Source: Acidobacteriaceae bacterium
GTDB lineage: Bacteria; Acidobacteriota; Terriglobia; Terriglobales; Acidobacteriaceae
Direction: 5' to 3'
Assembly: GCA_003134995.1 (NCBI GenBank)
Contig: PLDC01000024.1
Coordinates: 62,001 to 126,000 of the forward strand
DNA: 64,000 nucleotides
The first letter of the stretch is position 1. Each line of letters opens with the position of its first letter. This document shows positions 10,475 through 20,185 of this stretch, in pieces. The notes below the pieces were generated by a model. It searched no databases and was not told the origin of the DNA. It saw only the letters and a program-made list of their open reading frames with translations. Both the position numbers and the translations under genes were made by a program.

Positions 10475-11521
10475 ATGTCCCTAACCAAGTCCCAAGCCCT
10501 CGAGCTCTTCCACTCCGACGACCTGATCGGCATCGGCATGGAAGCCGACGCGGTGCGCCGCCAGTTGCATCCCGAAGGTACGGTCACCTACATTATCGAC
10601 CGCAACATCAATTACACGAACTTCTGCACCGAGTACTGCACCTTCTGCGCCTTTTATCGCCCGCTCAAAGGACCCGCCGCGAAAGAAGGCTACATTCTCG
10701 AGTTCGACACCATCTACGAAAAGATCCGCGAGACCGTCGAACTAGGAGGCACCGGCGTCCTGATGCAAGGCGGCCTGCATCCCGACCTCAAGATCGACTG
10801 GCACGAAAAGATGCTGCGCGGAATCAAAGACCGCTTCCCGCAAATTCATCTTCATTGTTACTCAGCATCCGAAATCATCGCCATAGCCGAGTACAGCGAA
10901 CTCAGCATTCGCGACACGATCCTCCGCCTGCGCGATGCTGGCCTCGATTCCATCCCCGGCGGCGGCGCAGAAATTCTCGACGACGAAGTGCGCTACAAAA
11001 TCGCCCGCCTGAAATGTTTAACCAACGACTGGATTAACGTCCACCGCACCGCCCATCAGATCGGCATGCGCACCACCGCAACCATGATGTTCGGCGTAGG
11101 AGAAAATTACGAACACCGCATCAACCACCTGCAAGCCCTCTACGACCTGCAGGAAGAAACCGGAGGCTTCACCGCCTTCATCCCCTGGAGCTTTCAGCCG
11201 CAAAACACCGCGCTAGGCGGCCGCCACTGGGACGAAGCCACCGCCGTCGAATACCTGAAGGTGCTAGCCATCTCGCGCCTCTATCTCTCAAACTTCGTCA
11301 ACGTGCAATCCAGTTGGGTCACGCAAGGCCTAAAAGTCTGCCAGATGGGCCTCCGGTTCGGCGGCAACGACGTAGGCTCGGTGATGCTGGAAGAAAACGT
11401 CGTGAGAGCCGCAGGCGTGACCAACTGCACGACTGAAGAAGAGTTACGCCGGATTATTCGCGACGCGGGATTTCGGCCGGCGCAGAGGGATACGTTGTAT
11501 CGGCAGTACTTTCTGAACTAG
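10475..11521 (+). CDS. mqnC: Cyclic dehypoxanthinyl futalosine synthase MqnC (radical SAM)
   Basis: The 348-aa radical-SAM enzyme has the cluster motif C51-x3-C55-x2-C58 in NFCTEYCTFCAFYR. A GGTGVLMQGGLHPDL block, HCYSASEIIAIAEYS, SIPGGGAEIL and the late TAFIPWSFQPQNT segment are characteristic of MqnC. It cyclises dehypoxanthine futalosine in menaquinone synthesis. I chose ATG 10475 (MSLTKSQ); the frame is open 90 bases further upstream but that part overlaps a non-coding repeat and has no family similarity. A simple operon with mqnA is doubtful because of the intervening repeat. Confidence 0.94.
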   Translation: MSLTKSQALELFHSDDLIGIGMEADAVRRQLHPEGTVTYIIDRNINYTNFCTEYCTFCAFYRPLKGPAAKEGYILEFDTIYEKIRETVELGGTGVLMQGGLHPDLKIDWHEKMLRGIKDRFPQIHLHCYSASEIIAIAEYSELSIRDTILRLRDAGLDSIPGGGAEILDDEVRYKIARLKCLTNDWINVHRTAHQIGMRTTATMMFGVGENYEHRINHLQALYDLQEETGGFTAFIPWSFQPQNTALGGRHWDEATAVEYLKVLAISRLYLSNFVNVQSSWVTQGLKVCQMGLRFGGNDVGSVMLEENVVRAAGVTNCTTEEELRRIIRDAGFRPAQRDTLYRQYFLN

Positions 11522-11712
11522 AAGTACAACCCGGCGACTCCGAACTCTAGGTGCCCGTCCATCGACTAAGCGGTCGAAAAGGACCGAGAAACTGTCCATC
11601 TACTTCATTTTTCGCTTGAACAATTTCGGTTGAGGGTTAAGAATCTACGAGGTTAGTGGCCCACTTAGTCCCACAGGACTCGGCAATATAAGTTCTCCTT
11701 AGAGGATCTGCC

Positions 11713-12387
11713 GTGGAACCGAGCGCCCAGAAGCCAGTCGAGATTCCCATCAAGAAAGACAAAGTCACCAAGCCACGGACGCCGCCGCCACGAACGCAGC
11801 CGGATCGAGACCTTGAGGACCGGCCTGCCGTTCTGATCCAGATTGAGCTCACGATGTGGTCGGGCATCGCACCGGAGGTACGACAGGAGCAACTCGTTGC
11901 GCTGGATGAGAGGTACCACGACATTCTCAATGAACTTTACGGCGTCGCCAACCTTTGCGTGGACCGGCACGCAATCTTATCGAAGTATCACACTTGGTGG
12001 CGACGGGTACTTATTGTCGGGACTGGGGTTCTTGCCTTGATTAACATTCTTGCCGCGAGCAAGGACTTAAAAGAATATGCAACCGCCGCGGCTCTTTCGG
12101 CCGCAGCCTTCGCCGTATTACTGGCGATACTCGGAAATCTGGAGAGTTTCAGCAATTGCCTGGAGAAAGCGCAGGCGTTCCGCGAATCACGTGAGCTGTT
12201 TCTGGACGTCGCAAGAGAGTTCGACCGCAGGTGGGACATCTATGTGCGACCCTTAACAGATACCCCAGAGGCATGTGTGAACGCTGCAGAGCTATATCGG
12301 CAGGTGGTTGCGAAGGACCGCGATCTGCGAGCTAAATTCAAAGAACTGACCAAGACTGAGGCGAGGACAACCGGAAGGAAACCGTGA
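11713..12387 (+). CDS. SLATT-like two-TM membrane protein
   Basis: The 224-aa protein starts with GTG 11713. It has a Pro/Lys-rich cytosolic head (1-40), an amphipathic region, two adjacent TM helices (about 97-115 and 122-141) and a long C-terminal helical region rich in Glu/Arg/Lys. The order (helix ending in a basic WWRR, TM hairpin, then LESFSNCLEKAQAFRESRELF) resembles SLATT/DUF4231 domains, which are predicted membrane effectors of nucleotide-sensing conflict systems. This assignment is by shape and local motif, not a search. Its TGA overlaps the GTG of the next ORF (GTGA), so it heads a coupled three-gene unit with the ParA-pentapeptide gene. Confidence 0.65.
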   Translation: MEPSAQKPVEIPIKKDKVTKPRTPPPRTQPDRDLEDRPAVLIQIELTMWSGIAPEVRQEQLVALDERYHDILNELYGVANLCVDRHAILSKYHTWWRRVLIVGTGVLALINILAASKDLKEYATAAALSAAAFAVLLAILGNLESFSNCLEKAQAFRESRELFLDVAREFDRRWDIYVRPLTDTPEACVNAAELYRQVVAKDRDLRAKFKELTKTEARTTGRKP

Positions 12388-12578
12388 CCGAAATGCAACA
12401 AGTCACGACGAGTTTTAGCGGCTTGGCCAATACCGGGCAGACCGCAGAAGTGTACTCAGGCCTTATCGAGATGGGGGAGGCCACCAAGGAGGGAGACTAT
12501 GAGAAGAACACTAAAGGACTCAAGAAACCATGGATTCTACCCATCCGTAGGCCCCCTATAACCAAATGGCCAATCTAG
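12384..12578 (+). CDS. Small ORF coupled between the SLATT-like and ParA-like genes
   Basis: A 64-aa frame from GTG 12384 that overlaps the upstream stop by four bases and ends 14 bases before the likely start of the ParA-like gene. It is polar and has no TM helix. The only recognisable stretch is GLANTGQTAEVYSGLIEMGEATKEGDY. I do not recognise it. The exact overlap and the absence of other coding sequence in this gap support translation, but it could also be a spacer. Confidence 0.45.
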   Translation: MTEMQQVTTSFSGLANTGQTAEVYSGLIEMGEATKEGDYEKNTKGLKKPWILPIRRPPITKWPI

Positions 12579-12592
12579 CCTCGGAACATAGA

Positions 12593-14389
12593 ATGGAAAT
12601 AATTGCATTTGCGAGCGGCAAAGGCGGGACCGGTAAGACGCTGATGGCTTCCTGTCTTGGCTATGCCCTAATTCAGGCGGGCCATCGGGTGCTAATGATC
12701 GATGCCGACCCGGCCACGGACGGACTGTCGCTATTCCTGCTTGGGCCAAAGGGCACTAAGCAGATTCAAGATTTTCAGGAGGCAAACACCTTTACGGGGG
12801 CCCTGCACGCATTTAGCCAGGGAGGATCTATGCTATGCGAGCCCCGGCGCATCAACCGCGCGGGGCCCGAGGACCACGGGGTCACTTACCAAGCCCTCAT
12901 AAGTGGGAGGGGCCTTTACGGGGACGACGCCACGCTCTCGCAAACTCTCGCTGTCCCAGACTTGGATCAGGAAACATTCCGGAAGGCAGTCAAAGAATTG
13001 TTCGCTTCGCTGAAAAAAGGAGATCGCTACGATTATGTAATTGTCGATACGCGCGGAGGCTTTGCCTTTGAGAGCACCGACGTATGCGCCCTGGCAGACA
13101 GTCTCATCGTCGTCACCGAACCCGACTTCACATCTTTCTACCAAGACAGAAACCTAATAAGGCGAATCAGCGCCGCCTCCGAGCAACTAGGTTCGAAGAC
13201 CCTGCTGCGCTCGGTCATCGTGAACAAGGCCACGGAAAGCGAGCAGAAGACGGACGAACTAGACCTCAGAAAAGTGGAAACATCATTTCGCATCGAGCTC
13301 ACCAAAGAATTTCCTCTGCGCTTTGAAGATACCCATCCCGTTCCGGTTGATGTCGAGGCGCTGAAGGCGTACAAAACCCAGCGGCTACCATACCGCACAG
13401 CACCGGCTTCGCTGTTCTCATTCGCTACTCTGTCCGCTTTTTCGGACATACTTCAGGTTGTAACGGCGCGTTGGCAGGAAGAGCAGATAAAGGGGTGGAA
13501 CGCGCTGGTTACGAGCGTCTCAGAGGCCGTAGAAAGCAGAAACAAGGAACTGGCCGCCGAAGCAAACAGGAGCAGGCAGAGGGAGGAGCAATCAGTCGAA
13601 CTGCAACACGAAAACAGATCCTTACAGCAACTCGTAGAACAGCTCAAGAGAGAAATCGATAGGACGGAAAGGCAGTACGAACGTGAACTCGCCCGACTTC
13701 CCTCTGAGAAGTCGACACCCCAATCGAAGAACCCGGCCGTCAGAGGGAGGACATTTTTCGGCCTGACATGGAGGGTGTGGTTTGTACTACTCATGGCTGT
13801 CGCCTTCCTGGAGCTTGCGGGTTTTGTGAGCTTCCGGCTTCTTCGAGTGTACGAGCAGAACCGTATCGACAGCCTAGTAACCAAAGCCTACGACAACTCG
13901 CTGCCGGTGGCTTTACGCACAACATACGTGAAAGAACTGCTAACCAGCTACCACAAGGCCGACTTCGCCGGGATTAGCCTGGAAAACGCCGTTTTGGACA
14001 ACTCTAATTTCAGACAGGTATCTCTCCAGGGAGCGGATTTTACAAACGCATCACTGAGCCGGGCAGATCTATCATCAGCCAAGCTAACAAGAACGACGTT
14101 CACCGGGGCCGACATGTCAGGAGCGCAACTACAACAAGCTCAGGCCGCTGGGGCGGACTTTTCGCACGCGAACCTAGCGAAAGCGGACCTAACGTCTTGC
14201 GATCTTACCAATGCCCTTCTTTTCGGGGCCGACCTCAGGGGAGCCAACCTCACGAGGGCAACCGCAGATTCGATACAGCTGGAAGCGGCCATTTTTGACC
14301 AATATACGACCTTTCCGGATGGCACGTCGGGGCACAAGCCGGTGGAGCTACCCCGCTCCGCTGCCGTTCCCACGAAAAAAGGATCGTGA
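12593..14389 (+). CDS. ParA/MinD-type ATPase fused to coiled coil, TM helix and pentapeptide repeats
   Basis: A 598-aa protein from ATG 12593; ATG 12566 would add nine residues, and neither start has a strong ribosome site. Domains in order: a deviant-Walker P-loop ATPase with KGGTGKT at 10-16, MIDADPATDG (about 35-44) and YDYVIVDTRGG (about 146-156), ending near 290. A charged coiled coil follows (about 305-370), then one TM helix (about 395-415). A C-terminal pentapeptide-repeat solenoid of about 22 A(D/N)LXX units (about 458-568) completes it. ParA-type ATPases normally position cargo on DNA or membranes. Here the ATPase is tethered to the membrane with an outward solenoid, a combination I do not recognise. 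AGG, ATA and CTA codons are frequent, unlike the neighbours, consistent with transfer. Confidence 0.85.
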   Translation: MEIIAFASGKGGTGKTLMASCLGYALIQAGHRVLMIDADPATDGLSLFLLGPKGTKQIQDFQEANTFTGALHAFSQGGSMLCEPRRINRAGPEDHGVTYQALISGRGLYGDDATLSQTLAVPDLDQETFRKAVKELFASLKKGDRYDYVIVDTRGGFAFESTDVCALADSLIVVTEPDFTSFYQDRNLIRRISAASEQLGSKTLLRSVIVNKATESEQKTDELDLRKVETSFRIELTKEFPLRFEDTHPVPVDVEALKAYKTQRLPYRTAPASLFSFATLSAFSDILQVVTARWQEEQIKGWNALVTSVSEAVESRNKELAAEANRSRQREEQSVELQHENRSLQQLVEQLKREIDRTERQYERELARLPSEKSTPQSKNPAVRGRTFFGLTWRVWFVLLMAVAFLELAGFVSFRLLRVYEQNRIDSLVTKAYDNSLPVALRTTYVKELLTSYHKADFAGISLENAVLDNSNFRQVSLQGADFTNASLSRADLSSAKLTRTTFTGADMSGAQLQQAQAAGADFSHANLAKADLTSCDLTNALLFGADLRGANLTRATADSIQLEAAIFDQYTTFPDGTSGHKPVELPRSAAVPTKKGS

Positions 14390-14422
14390 CATGAAGGCCA
14401 CCCTCGATTTCGTCGCCGTCTT

Positions 14423-14530
14423 AAAATGCAAACGGCCCCGGAAATCCCGAGGCCGTTCGCGAGAGCCGGTAGCCGGTACCCCATCAAGGTCACCCTTATG
14501 ATCGAGACGACGCCGCCGAGAATCAAGTTA
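14423..14530. repeat. Direct repeat copy 1 (about 108 bp)
   Basis: It aligns to 14945-15055. Shared blocks are ATGCAAACGGCCCCGG, TCCCGAGGCCGTTCGCGAGA, GGTACCCC-TCAAGGTCAC and AATCAAGTTA, with substitutions and small indels between them. Read on the minus strand, both copies carry similar frames (NLILGGVVSIIRVTLMGYR here). Confidence 0.85.
14431..14457 (-). terminator. Hairpin with minus-strand T-run, repeat copy 1
   Basis: Stem AACGGCC / GGCCGTT with an inner GC-rich part. On the minus strand the stem is followed by TGCATTTTAA. It could end transcripts entering from the tRNA-like side. Confidence 0.45.
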
Positions 14531-14713
14531 TAGGCGCCTATCCACCGCGCCGGATCCTTGCGTGCTATGCCGTTGGTCATCTCCTCAGAAAATTAAAGGC
14601 ATCTTAGAATCAGGTGTCGATTGAGAACGCTAACCTCCTCCTGCCAAACGTTTGACGTCCACCTGTAAGCGCAGGCGACGAAGCTTATAAAGATAATCTC
14701 CAGGAGGCAACAT

Positions 14714-14875
14714 ATGGCTGCAGGTGCAGCTCCCGCTCCCGAAGTAAAGGCCGAAACAGAAACCGAGACCAAGCGAACGGCTCCCGCGCCGCCCACAACA
14801 AAGTGGCAGCGCTTCCAACAGAAGCTCCATGAAATTTTTGCTGAACGCGAAGACCACTCAGGCTGGCACCAATAA
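14714..14875 (+). CDS. 53-aa small ORF with strong ribosome site
   Basis: ATG 14714 is preceded by a perfect AGGAGG at 14702-14707 with normal spacing. The product starts MAAGAAPAPEVKAETETETK, continues as an Ala/Pro-rich disordered segment, and ends in a helical, aromatic C terminus (KWQRFQQKLHEIFAERED then HSGWHQ). There is no signal or TM segment. It lies between the two 110-bp repeats. I do not recognise a family. The ribosome site and the change from disordered to helical composition make translation plausible. Confidence 0.55.
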   Translation: MAAGAAPAPEVKAETETETKRTAPAPPTTKWQRFQQKLHEIFAEREDHSGWHQ

Positions 14876-14944
14876 CGGCCGGCGGATTCTCGATTCTTGC
14901 AAGAGCGGGACCTGCGAAAAAGTCCTTGTCCTTTTCCAGGCCTC

Positions 14945-14981
14945 AAAAATGCAAACGGCCCCGGGAAATCCCGAGGCCGTT
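14945..14981 (-). terminator. Hairpin with minus-strand T-run, repeat copy 2
   Basis: Stem AACGGCC / GGCCGTT (14954-14960, 14975-14981) with an inner GGGA/TCCC pairing. On the minus strand it is followed by TGCATTTTTGAGG, an intrinsic-terminator arrangement for transcripts coming from the tRNA-like sequence. Confidence 0.55.
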
Positions 14982-15055
14982 CGCGAGAACCGATAAATCG
15001 GTACCCCGTCAAGGTCACCACCATTATCGAGACAATGCCCCCGAAAATCAAGTTA
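14945..15055. repeat. Direct repeat copy 2 (about 111 bp)
   Basis: The partner of 14423-14530. Its ACCCCGTCAAGGTC core (15003-15016) also occurs, inverted and exact over 14 bases, in the anticodon arm of the tRNA-like sequence (15160-15173). Confidence 0.85.
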
Positions 15056-15126
15056 CTTTGAGGAGGGTCGCACCCCGTCCTGCGAACCCTCCACTTGTCC
15101 CTGAGAGACAATCTTCCCGAAGGAAG

Positions 15127-15203
15127 GTGGACCCCCGGAGGGACTCGAACCCTCACTCGGACCTTGACGGGGTCCTGTGCTGCCGTTACACCACAGGCCC
15201 ACG
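15127..15203 (-). tRNA. tRNA-like sequence, anticodon GTC (Asp-like), probably degenerate or atypical
   Basis: On the minus strand there is a D-arm (GTGT, loop AACGGCA with the G18G19 pair, GCAC) and a 5-bp anticodon stem GGACC/GGTCC with loop CCGTCAA. A perfect T-arm follows (GAGGG, TTCGAGT, CCCTC). The outer stem GTGGGCC/GGTCCAC pairs over seven positions, but four extra bases intrude on each side before the D- and T-arms. Position 33 is C instead of the near-universal T, and no CCA is encoded. These defects suggest a tRNA relic or a tRNA-derived element rather than a standard tRNA-Asp. Confidence 0.4.
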
Positions 15204-15345
15204 AGTCAAAGCTTACTTCAGCCATGACAAGGATTCAGGCCTCTATCCTGCATTTACTGAAGCGGAGTTTCGTTTTGGAACAGCCTTCGCGGTCCTGACC
15301 TGCAGGGCTTGCCATCCGCGCTAGAATAGCCTCAGCGAGGCCCCC

Positions 15346-15630
15346 ATGCCGCAACTAACGCCGCAAGTCTCCGAAGTTCTCGAAAAAGCGCTGGCCCTCT
15401 CCAGCGAGGATCGTGGACTTATCATCCACCGGCTCGTCGAAAGCCTCGACGATGAACCGGCCGAAGAAGGAGTCGAGGCCGCTTGGTCGGAAGAAGTTAA
15501 GCGCCGCGTGGAAGAGATTCAGTCCGGCAAAGTCGAAATGATTTCAGGCGATCAGGTACTCAGGGAACTCGCCGAAGAATTTCCCTATGAATCCCACCGA
15601 ATTTCCGGACCAAGCTCTTGTGACATCTGA
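15346..15630 (+). CDS. Addiction-module antitoxin-like protein, apparently orphan
   Basis: A 94-aa protein. Residues 1-75 (VLEKALALSSEDRGLIIHRLVESLD, then EEGVEAAWSEEVKRRVEEIQSGKVE) match the small helical antitoxins of the putative addiction-module family (TIGR02574-type) that normally precede a RelE/ParE toxin. Usual family length is about 75-80 aa. The last residues (FPYESHRISGPSSCDI) look like an extension into lost downstream sequence. No toxin frame follows; instead a 20-base dispersed repeat (15618-15637) crosses the stop. The toxin has probably been deleted. Confidence 0.7.
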   Translation: MPQLTPQVSEVLEKALALSSEDRGLIIHRLVESLDDEPAEEGVEAAWSEEVKRRVEEIQSGKVEMISGDQVLRELAEEFPYESHRISGPSSCDI

Positions 15631-15637
15631 CCTTGCG
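15618..15637. repeat. 20-base dispersed repeat, copy 1
   Basis: TTGTGACATCTGACCTTGCG recurs exactly at 45039-45058. Here it lies at the broken end of the antitoxin module. Confidence 0.8.
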
Positions 15638-16034
15638 TTCCACAGTTTCTCGGCCGATGATGTTAGGGAGCGAGAGCCGCAAAGTCGGTTCCGAGGCACG
15701 TTGTTCTTTGACAATTGAACAAAACGCAATAAGTCCTGTTAATTCAATATTTTACGATCTGCATCATTGATTCTAAACAGCTTAGCTCGTGCCCCATCCG
15801 CTAAGTCCTTTGAATGGAGTATTTTACGCGCAACCCCTTTGTTTTCATTGGTTTACTCGGATGGCAAAAACGTAAGTTGTTGATTACAGATGTTTTACGG
15901 TCGCAGCCGTGCAAATTTTTTTGATCTGGATTCGAGCCGAAACCGGGTTAGAATAGCTAGTCAGAGAACTTGATCGGTCCTCACGGTCACGACTCGGGCG
16001 ACTCTGGAATTCCTCCCCGCATCCGAACACCATA
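15638..16034. other. AT-richer intergenic stretch with three spaced degenerate direct repeats
   Basis: No credible gene. Three 27-base segments, each starting TAAGT and ending TTTTACG, lie at 15730-15756, 15802-15828 and 15873-15899, with gaps of 45 and 44 bases (period 71-72). A GTTCTTTGACAATTGAAC motif at about 15703-15720 precedes them. Similarity among units is strong only at the ends. Confidence 0.55.
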
Positions 16035-18123: not shown

Positions 18124-18510
18124 ATGACCAGGATTGTGCTAGATGCTTCCGCGATCCTGGCCGTGATCGGCGGAGAACCCGGGGCAGAGAAGTTGACTCC
18201 GGCCCTGCTGGCCCGAGCCGTCGGCAGCGCCGTGAATCTTGCCGAAGTGCAAACCAAACTGGTGAGCCGTGGCTGGACTCCCGAGCAAGCATGGGAAGAC
18301 GCCACAAGTCCGGTTCGTGAAGTTGTGGCATTCGATGAGCATCAGGCCAGACTTGCCGGCGATCTGGCGATTGAAACCAGGCATCTTGGTTTATCTCTCG
18401 GAGACCGCGCCTGCCTCGCCTTGGGGATCGCGCTCAGACTCCCCGTGTATACCGCCGAGAGAGCGTGGAAGAAGCTTAAGCTCGGCGTGAGAATTCATGT
18501 CATCCGCTAA
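18124..18510 (+). CDS. PIN-domain toxin (VapC-type ribonuclease)
   Basis: The 128-aa PIN domain has an Asp in VLDASAILAVIGGEPG (Asp7), a Glu in NLAEVQTKL (about residue 42), and the C-terminal acidic site LSLGDRACLALGIALRLPVYTAE (Asp near 97), then a W-KKL motif. These form the Mg-dependent RNase centre of VapC toxins. The target RNA cannot be read from sequence. It is paired with the AbrB-type antitoxin upstream. Length and motifs are complete, so the toxin is probably functional. Confidence 0.9.
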   Translation: MTRIVLDASAILAVIGGEPGAEKLTPALLARAVGSAVNLAEVQTKLVSRGWTPEQAWEDATSPVREVVAFDEHQARLAGDLAIETRHLGLSLGDRACLALGIALRLPVYTAERAWKKLKLGVRIHVIR

Positions 18511-18553: not shown

Positions 18554-20185
18554 TTGCTCCACTCTGATCTCATTCTGTCTTCGACGCTGGCCGCTTGGAC
18601 TGCTCCCAAGGGCATTGGGCCTTATCTGCGTCAGCATTTGTTGGATAAGACTTTTCAGGGGCTCTACCACACCGACGCGTTCGACCGCGCGCTGCTGATT
18701 CCTTATTTCATTGTGCTGATCCTGCTCGCTGCGTACGGGATGCACCGCTACATTCTCGTTTATCTGTATTACAAACATAAGAAGAACCGCACTACCGAAC
18801 CGGCCGCGTACTTTGAAGATTTGCCGCGCGTTACTGTGCAACTGCCCATCTTTAATGAGCAGTATGTTGTCGAACGGTTGCTCGAATCGATTTGCAAGCT
18901 GAAGTATCCGCGCGAGCAGTTCGACATCCAGGTGCTCGACGATTCCACCGATGAAACCGTCGACGTGGCGCGCAACCTCGTGGAGCGTTATGCCGCGCTG
19001 GGAAATCCGATCAGCTACCATCACCGCACGAACCGTGAAGGCTTCAAGGCCGGAGCGCTCGCCGAGGGACTAAAGACTGCGAAAGGCGAGTTCGTCGCTA
19101 TCTTCGACGCTGACTTCACTCCGCCGGAAGACTTTTTAATGCGTACTATTCATCACTTTACAGATCCAAAGATCGGCATGGTGCAGACGCGCTGGACGCA
19201 TATCAACCGCAATTATTCTTTCCTTACCCAGGTGGAAGCGATCCTGCTCGATGGGCATTTTGTGCTCGAGCATTCTGGACGGGCGCGTAGCGGTGTCTTC
19301 TTCAACTTCAACGGCACGGCTGGAGTCTGGCGGCGCGCAGCCATCGATGAAGCCGGCGGGTGGCAGCACGACACGCTCACGGAAGATACCGATCTTTCTT
19401 ACCGCGCGCAGCTTAAGGGATGGAAGTTCATCTATCTGCAGGATGTGGAGTGTCCTGCTGAATTGCCCGTAGAGATGACCGCGTTCAAGACGCAGCAGGC
19501 GCGGTGGGCGAAAGGGTTGATCCAGACGGGGAAGAAGATTCTGCCGCGGGTGCTGCGCAGCGACGCGCCGCTACACACGAAGATTGAAGCCTGGTATCAC
19601 CTCACCGCGAACCTGAGTTATCCGCTGATGATCGTGCTCTCGGTGCTGATGTTGCCGGCGATGATCATCCGGTTTTATCAGGGATGGTTCCAGATGCTGT
19701 TCATCGATCTGCCATTGTTTATGGCATCAACGTTTTCGATTTCGAGTTTCTATCTGGTGTCGCAGCGCGAACTGTTTCCCAAAACCTGGCCGAAGGCGCT
19801 GCTGTATCTGCCGTTCCTTATGGCTCTTGGCATCGGATTGACAATCACCAACACCAAGGCTGTGATCGAAGCGCTGATCGGCAAGGAGAGCGCTTTCGCG
19901 CGCACTCCGAAGTATCACGTAGTGTCGAAGCGAGACAAAGTTGGCGCTACCAAGTATCGCAAGCGCCTGGGTTGGGTGCCGTGGGTTGAACTGCTGATTG
20001 GCAGTTACTTTGCGCTGACTGTTTTTTATGCAATCGAGAATGAGAACTTCGTTACGATTCCATTTCTTCTGTTGTTCGTGTTGGGTTATTGGTATACGGG
20101 ATTGATGTCTCTGCTGCAAGGCCGGTTCTCGGGTGTCGAGCTTAGCGCGGAGAGTCACACGAAGCCGTTTCCCGTGGGAGTGTGA
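18554..20185 (+). CDS. Processive family 2 glycosyltransferase (cellulose/glucomannan synthase-like)
   Basis: The 543-aa membrane enzyme has an N-terminal TM helix (about 48-72), a GT-A catalytic domain with D,D,D,QxxRW residues (DDS 129-131, DAD 185-187, TED 276-278, QQARW 314-318) and a C-terminal cluster of TM helices (about 350-520). This is the layout of CelA/CslA-like beta-glycan synthases. There is no PilZ domain and no bcsB/bcsZ neighbour, so it is probably a stand-alone polysaccharide or glycolipid synthase. The start is TTG 18554. The product is unknown. Confidence 0.88.
   Translation: MLHSDLILSSTLAAWTAPKGIGPYLRQHLLDKTFQGLYHTDAFDRALLIPYFIVLILLAAYGMHRYILVYLYYKHKKNRTTEPAAYFEDLPRVTVQLPIFNEQYVVERLLESICKLKYPREQFDIQVLDDSTDETVDVARNLVERYAALGNPISYHHRTNREGFKAGALAEGLKTAKGEFVAIFDADFTPPEDFLMRTIHHFTDPKIGMVQTRWTHINRNYSFLTQVEAILLDGHFVLEHSGRARSGVFFNFNGTAGVWRRAAIDEAGGWQHDTLTEDTDLSYRAQLKGWKFIYLQDVECPAELPVEMTAFKTQQARWAKGLIQTGKKILPRVLRSDAPLHTKIEAWYHLTANLSYPLMIVLSVLMLPAMIIRFYQGWFQMLFIDLPLFMASTFSISSFYLVSQRELFPKTWPKALLYLPFLMALGIGLTITNTKAVIEALIGKESAFARTPKYHVVSKRDKVGATKYRKRLGWVPWVELLIGSYFALTVFYAIENENFVTIPFLLLFVLGYWYTGLMSLLQGRFSGVELSAESHTKPFPVGV

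Follow-up and report, generated by a model that had tools for sequence, protein, structure and literature searches.

Among the closest described counterparts of the locus reported here are the VMAP ternary systems, conflict loci that contain a MinD/ParA-like domain and whose effector lists include pentapeptide repeats (PMC7159879). That source counts MinD/ParA-like, SLATT, and pentapeptide domains as components of conflict systems, places SLATT proteins in sister systems of VMAP, predicts SLATT to be a pore-forming effector, and describes the MinD/ParA domains of the VMAP systems as predicted inactive. A further point of comparison is the secreted YjbI of Caulobacter, a pentapeptide protein that acts in the envelope and for which the available portion of the article mentions no fusion to an ATPase (PMC12864828).

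The locus lies in a window of 64,000 nucleotides, by which we mean the whole stretch of Acidobacteriaceae DNA that was analysed. Its features, in window coordinates, are the following.

11713–12387 (+): SLATT-like protein with two transmembrane (TM) segments, at about residues 99–117 and 123–141; 224 aa, GTG start (NCBIfam, PADLOC, hydrophobicity)
12384–12578 (+): small coupled ORF; 64 aa, GTG start (homologue in genome G404, frame-pair scores)
12566–14389 (+): MinD/ParA-like ATPase, coiled coil, TM helix, and pentapeptide repeats in one protein; 607 aa (stop-free frame)
12593–13480 (+): ATPase domain, residues about 10–305 (AAA_31 at 1.7e-14, AlphaFold model, PDB matches)
13481–13720 (+): coiled-coil linker, residues about 306–385 (homology to G404, modelled long helices)
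13775–13831 (+): TM helix, residues 404–422 (hydrophobic segment)
13958–14302 (+): pentapeptide solenoid, residues 465–579, 23 units, predicted to lie outside the cytoplasm (PF00805, repeat register, topology)

The window operon shares domain types with the VMAP systems and differs from them in its intact Walker A motif and in an ATPase that carries its own TM helix and exported domain; no vWA, MoxR/GTPase, or VMAP gene was found among the 12 other window ORFs scanned with Pfam, which places the locus outside that group. The bSEFIR systems of PADLOC and the SLATT effectors have partner genes of the same kind, and to our knowledge these are in no known system joined to an ATPase of MinD type that bears an exported domain. 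The fold and motifs of MinD, FlhG, FleN, and Soj recur in the window ATPase, whereas we know of no TM anchor or exported domain in those proteins. As far as we know, the bacterial immune switches described to date mostly do their sensing in the cytoplasm. In the open-licence PMC literature searched, no title or abstract opening among the papers listed sets out an architecture of this kind.

The frame at 12566–14389 (+) is open throughout and encodes 607 residues. Pfam matches it to AAA_31 (1.7e-14, residues 10–208), CbiA (7.6e-12), and Pentapeptide PF00805 (4.6e-24), all far above chance level, and PDB sequence matches assign its N terminus to MinD-type ATPases and its C terminus to pentapeptide proteins. 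The C-terminal part belongs to the pentapeptide-repeat family, with 84 bits against a cut-off of 20.2 and an A(D/N)LXX register that runs over 23 units; the sequence-only reading had recognized the solenoid correctly and counted one unit fewer, 22. Between the two lies a single strong hydrophobic segment, VWFVLLMAVAFLELAGFVS (residues 404–422, mean Kyte-Doolittle value 2.22), which corresponds to residues 395–413 in the numbering of that reading and so bears out the helix it had placed near 395–415, whose absence it had named as fatal. Its order of ATPase, coiled coil, TM helix, and pentapeptide repeats in one chain is thus borne out by the intact frame, the Pfam matches, and the hydrophobic segment. 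The coiled coil was called by eye, and long helices appear there in the AlphaFold models; a model of the full chain, made from four alignment rows, reached a pLDDT of only 43.8 and was useless. The gene itself was placed correctly and its start less so: ATG 12566 is the more likely start codon rather than 12593, because it lies within the end of a small ORF that is conserved, and the homologous start in G404 does likewise.

The ATPase domain belongs to the ParA/MinD (deviant Walker A) class, as it has a KGGxGKT motif with the signature lysine, a Walker B aspartate, and the MinD/ParA fold. The Walker A sequence KGGTGKT, the DADPATDG motif, and the Walker-B-like VIVDTRGG, all reported as intact from the sequence, are present in the translated frame, and Lys19, Gly20, Gly21, Gly23, Lys24, Asp48, and Asp161 are invariant across 36 aligned ATPase rows. 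The AlphaFold model of residues 1–330 built from 36 rows has a mean pLDDT of 74.1 and a pTM of 0.76, with residues 73–126 under 50. When compared with the PDB, it is closest to MinD (1hyq, 3.8e-12), followed by FlhG, FleN, and Soj/ParA, with 15–25% identity across 50 listed structural alignments. The domain stays below the cut-offs of the classical MinD/FlhG/ParA models (56.5 against 212.9 bits for minD_bact, 47.2 against 180 for ParA_partition). Another NCBIfam model, NF047398 (AAA_KGGVGR), spans the greater part of the ATPase domain in each of the five family members scanned (9e-13, 2.7e-18, 3e-13, 3.2e-13, and 5.7e-10), but with 39.8–67 bits against a cut-off of 90 (49 bits for the window protein, which is therefore outside the model); the Walker A motif of the window-type ATPases is KGGxGKT rather than KGGVGR, and MinD models equal or beat NF047398 for the proteins of the window, G404, and Pedobacter. 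A plasmid-partition role was rejected, since no ParB neighbour was seen at the window locus; ParB adjoins the ATPase gene in both of the ordinary ParA plasmid matches that were opened (H61 and H65).

The sequence-only reading passed over the operon to which the ATPase gene belongs. The SLATT-like gene and the ATPase gene lie 178 nt apart, and the gap is filled by the 64-aa ORF, which overlaps the former by 4 nt and the latter by 13 nt, giving a translationally coupled order with the ATPase gene last. The SLATT-like protein matches SLATT_1 of NCBIfam at 1.4e-5 (25 bits, cut-off 41) and SLATT_4 at 0.0015; its homologue in G404, 47% identical over 182 aa, matches SLATT_1 at 8.9e-7 (28.9 bits, likewise under the cut-off of 41), and the PADLOC model RTasSLATT gives 8.5e-4 for the window protein and 0.0032 for the other. 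Two hydrophobic segments give these proteins a 2-TM arrangement. A two-row profile of them matched nothing in the PDB up to E 10, their alignment was found in none of 130 viral stretches, and the window protein matched a single one of 297 phylum genomes, its own. A second weak SLATT-like match lies elsewhere in the source genome (G000:C10:111210–111377, minus strand, E 0.0016; loci L041 and L048). The small ORF has a 60-aa homologue in the same position in G404 (L080:8623–8805), where the corresponding overlaps measure 11 and 4 nt. This pair gives a local BLOSUM62 score of 85, reached by none of 20,000 shuffles (maximum 53), while the eight other frame pairs score only 16–27. Pfam gives the 64-aa protein no match at E values up to 10, and the ORF is present in two of the seven loci compared.

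Comparison with the relatives shows that both the part after the TM helix and the partner gene vary, the former between pentapeptide repeats and an unnamed SPOR-like domain, the latter between SLATT-like, CHAT-like, SEFIR, and small proteins. The window protein and that of G404 are 50.9% identical over residues 4–383 (ATPase and coiled coil; blastp), with no match between their C termini: G404 has the same operon and a TM helix in the same place, followed by an unnamed domain of another kind, about 130 aa long. This domain is 54% identical over 128 aa to the C-terminal domain of the protein from G154, while the ATPases of G404 and G154 are only 26% identical, and among 200 genomes of the class it occurs in these two alone; one exported part has moved between distant ATPases. 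The likeness of this domain to SPOR was seen by eye only, and Pfam searched to E 1 and the PDB searched to E 10 both gave nothing. The ATPase of G154 carries three TM helices, and upstream of it are a gene for a 152-aa protein with one TM segment and a gene called CHAT-like mainly by eye, its Pfam values of 0.09 and 0.14 being under the threshold.

Another fusion of an ATPase to a pentapeptide solenoid is encoded in G1090, from the Myxococcota, the phylum of a Myxococcales bacterium. This 917-aa protein has an ATPase (AAA_31, 4.5e-17), three TM helices, and pentapeptide repeats (2.5e-48), and its gene overlaps by 4 nt that of a SEFIR-2TM protein, which matches bSEFIR of PADLOC at 9.7e-29 and has no match in Pfam or NCBIfam. 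The domain order is therefore not the one-off that it had seemed. A Pedobacter contig encodes a 406-aa ATPase-2TM protein whose gene overlaps that of a 205-aa protein; beside this pair lies a gene for a calcineurin-like phosphoesterase-HATPase fusion (L160:8488–11157, minus strand; Pfam 7.9e-19 and 1.6e-10), possibly a conflict gene. Two near-identical P2-like prophages (L166 and L171), counted as one lineage, encode a 343-aa ATPase-2TM protein coupled to a membrane protein of 126–128 aa, and a third copy lies on a 4.6-kb contig (L165). The pair is antisense and sits between baseplate-assembly and tail-completion genes (assigned by PHROGs in L166 and by eye in L171), the place of an accessory cassette. 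We take this interval to correspond to the Z/fun locus of P2. The P2 hotspot described in PMC9122126 is a different one, located between gpA and gpQ.

All seven loci, from six lineages, show tight coupling between the ATPase gene and a gene upstream of it. The ten junctions in these loci comprise nine overlaps of 1–13 nt and one gap of 8 nt, with start codons chosen by hand and other starts possible for some genes. After the ATPase come 1, 1, 3, and 3 TM helices in the four proteins that bear a C-terminal domain, and two in each of the three proteins that end without one (two of these three being near-identical). Since an odd number of helices follows a cytoplasmic ATPase, every C-terminal domain is predicted to lie outside the cytoplasm, and so should the window solenoid, as the sequence-only reading had proposed for its single TM helix; in G1090, arginine and lysine abound in the stretch that connects TM2 with TM3, as expected of a cytoplasmic loop. 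DNA mimicry, which the sequence-only reading had mentioned as frequent among known pentapeptide proteins, is unlikely for an exported solenoid and was dropped as the main idea, given that the solenoid comes after the TM helix.

In a tree with 24 MinD/FlhG/ParA-type controls, thinned by hand from 45 and leaving out a TIR-fused row of G022, the seven family ATPases split from the controls at 90/93, and the window, G404, and G154 proteins group at 98/96. With all 45 controls and the degenerate TIR-fused ATPase of G022, the family label needs two changes, because the very long G022 row falls beside the window and G404 proteins; the branches are long, which leaves the deep part of the tree unsure, and it is on these trees that the wider family depends. 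Neither tree places the ATPase of G1090 with that of the window, and the two pentapeptide fusions therefore probably arose separately. The seven ATPases have in common KGGxGKT, DxD...G[LV][ST], [VIL]D[TSAC][RQY][GA]G, VxE, N[KR], and PxD; a seven-member profile (A7) was built from these same proteins, whose scores with it are circular, and the trees serve as a separate test.

Close relatives are rare. Of 300 genomes from the family, three contain the close subfamily at E ≤ 1e-15 (the source genome G000, G154, and G404), and none of the listed Pfam, NCBIfam, and PADLOC models covers the whole architecture; the large family of known role that would have spoken against novelty did not appear in these searches, and the ATPase-TM-pentapeptide fusion appears to be neither unique nor part of a large known family. 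In 36 other genomes of the genus there are only short or weak P-loop matches, the longest in G022 (26% identity over residues 9–195, E 3.2e-4). Among 297 phylum genomes only G154 stands out besides the source genome, and among 347 only G154 and G404: a loose search matched 18 of the 297 at 0.01, with only the source genome and G154 (1.1e-12) passing 7e-5, and 217 of the 347 at 1e-6, with only the source genome, G154, and G404 passing 1e-90. In two further phyla, 1 of 149 and 1 of 140 genomes match at E ≤ 1e-12, and only the latter (G1090) has this architecture. With the close-family profile nothing passed 1e-15 in three further genomes including Pedobacter; as Pedobacter holds a distant member, such searches miss distant members. 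With loose limits the profiles mainly pick up the P-loop; a limit of E ≤ 1e-3, for instance, brings in 51 of 61 genomes. The long ORFs among the loose matches were fetched in part and their loci screened for an ATPase followed by TM segments or pentapeptides; beyond the members reported here, this gave TM segments only in weak partial matches (L072, 5e-8; L116, 3.8e-7; L132, 2.8e-8; L156, 7.5e-9). In Bacteroidota, 31 of 61 genomes match at 1e-12, and the three surroundings read besides Pedobacter are, by eye, those of FlhG in flagellar operons. Two candidate members, in G904 and G1010, were rejected as ATPase-only frames of 305 and 312 aa. None of 109 matching plasmid records and none of 141 phage records span 80% of the protein in one place. 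A scan of genome contigs with the single protein found no relative; with the alignment, its patterns lay in or beside the P-loop and the matches listed (at least 80 loci) were mostly generic MinD/ParA, so that it says little on true abundance.

The window cassette lies in a site that is empty in G014 of the same genus, where 258 bp separate the MqnC and carboxypeptidase-regulatory-like matches as against 4353 bp (11518–15870) in the window. Neither the SLATT-like gene nor the ATPase gene occurs downstream of MqnC in eight same-genus regions read from the 31 other genomes with a match; two of the eight end within about 1 kb of MqnC and carry little weight. The G404 operon has another context, near genes that by eye resemble those of arginine biosynthesis. 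The G+C content does not stand out. Among the neighbours scanned no defence island was seen: apart from a PIN-domain (VapC-like) gene at 18124–18510 (+; Pfam 4.6e-10), they resemble genes for housekeeping and signalling, and a glycosyltransferase gene lies at 18554.

We read the locus as a three-gene operon in which a membrane-anchored MinD-like switch would link an exported domain with a partner, each of them exchangeable, a reading on which our confidence is evenly balanced. Its predicted architecture (an ATPase with intact motifs, coiled coil, TM helix, and solenoid), the gene coupling, the swapping, and the patchy presence are read from the sequences themselves. The operon is probably used in a biological conflict such as anti-phage immunity; to the immune use itself we give somewhat less than even weight. 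The overall reading is supported by the gene coupling, the domain swapping, the conflict-type partners (SLATT-like, SEFIR, and, mainly by eye, CHAT-like), the prophage cassettes, and the patchy distribution; swapping of the outer part and the partner gene is how immune-like cassettes tend to evolve. More tentatively, and leaning against rather than for it, we propose an undescribed transmembrane class of immune or conflict systems, in which an anchored MinD-like ATPase would read the outside via an interchangeable exported domain and fire an interchangeable partner such as a SLATT-like pore, a CHAT-like protease, a SEFIR protein, or a small membrane protein; its reach would include the family of the window DNA as well as Myxococcota, Bacteroidota, and P2-like prophages. 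The exported domain might bind a ligand or perturbation in the envelope, such as one of the cell wall, of the surface, or from an injected phage component; binding would change the ATP-dependent dimerization of the ATPase along the coiled coil, and the dimer state would release or gate the partner, here the SLATT-like protein, leading to growth arrest or depolarization, with the 64-aa protein possibly acting as an adaptor or brake. If this were true, a variable recognition-like part outside the cytoplasm, joined in a single chain to a MinD-type ATPase and coupled to SLATT-, SEFIR-, or CHAT-like partners, would amount to a bacterial equivalent of an immune receptor at the surface, and pentapeptide solenoids would gain a role other than gyrase protection. 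No known defence system was called. The window ATPase matches PDC-M28B (1.8e-7, residues 6–61) and mad8 (0.0026, residues 13–210) in PADLOC; across all the ATPases PADLOC 2.0.0 gives weak matches, most of which extend over little more than the P-loop, the longest and best being PDC-M28B in G1090 (1.3e-10, residues 4–197).

Alternatively, a MinD-like ATPase anchored by its own TM helix, in place of an amphipathic helix, might position its partner membrane protein or a wall-binding domain within the envelope and have no part in immunity, as its nearest folds (MinD, FlhG, FleN, and Soj) would suggest; many cargos are placed by ParA/MinD ATPases, in the accessible text of PMC10241942, and the swapped domain, if read by eye as SPOR-like and wall-binding, would suit septal placement. 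The patchy, swapped, and prophage-borne distribution is nevertheless unlike that of housekeeping positioning systems, SEFIR is among the partner types, and the seven ATPases stand apart from the 24 MinD/FlhG/ParA-type controls, which leaves such a spatial role unlikely in our view. The prophage-borne pairs, the coupled small ORF, and the nearby PIN-domain gene and addiction-module-like ORF (by eye) could instead point to a fitness cassette of a prophage or island, for superinfection exclusion or as a toxin-antitoxin pair, in which the SLATT-like or small membrane protein would be the toxin, the ATPase or small ORF would restrain it, and the exported domain would be a mere anchor. We consider this quite unlikely, as a solenoid of 23 units is large for an anchor, the exported part is swapped between unrelated domains, suggesting recognition, and the small ORF is present in only two of the seven loci.

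Kinship with ATPases of surface polysaccharide or cellulose secretion (BcsQ or BY-kinase type) would draw on a BcsQ model match at 1.3e-6, confined to the P-loop, and on the glycosyltransferase gene at 18554; a glycosyltransferase gene, however, follows MqnC by about 0.6–0.7 kb in two same-genus genomes that have no cassette there (L228 and L229), and in BY-kinases the TM part precedes the ATPase, which makes such a kinship very improbable. That none of the 36 other same-genus genomes has the protein could suggest a chance fusion or an assembly artefact, an explanation that is barely credible when the 607-codon frame is open, the G404 operon is homologous across all three genes up to the TM helix, and the same architecture recurs in G1090.

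Several minor features accompany these loci. Just downstream of the ATPase gene, an imperfect direct repeat of about 110 nt (14423–14530 and 14946–15055, 84–95% identical in pieces, 523–525 nt apart) has matching DNA in the same-genus region L225. It is followed by a tRNA gene on the minus strand (15134–15197; Rfam 39.8 bits, gathering threshold 29; anticodon GTC by eye) that ARAGORN did not report, and tRNA genes lie at many genomic islands. A short ORF at about 15346–15600 (+) resembles, by eye, an addiction-module component. In G022 of the same genus, an ORF on contig C11 (L043:3006–4352) encodes a ParA-like domain with a degenerate Walker A motif, DGIGRS, followed by what by eye is a TIR-like domain, and the contig also holds integrase- and transposase-like ORFs.
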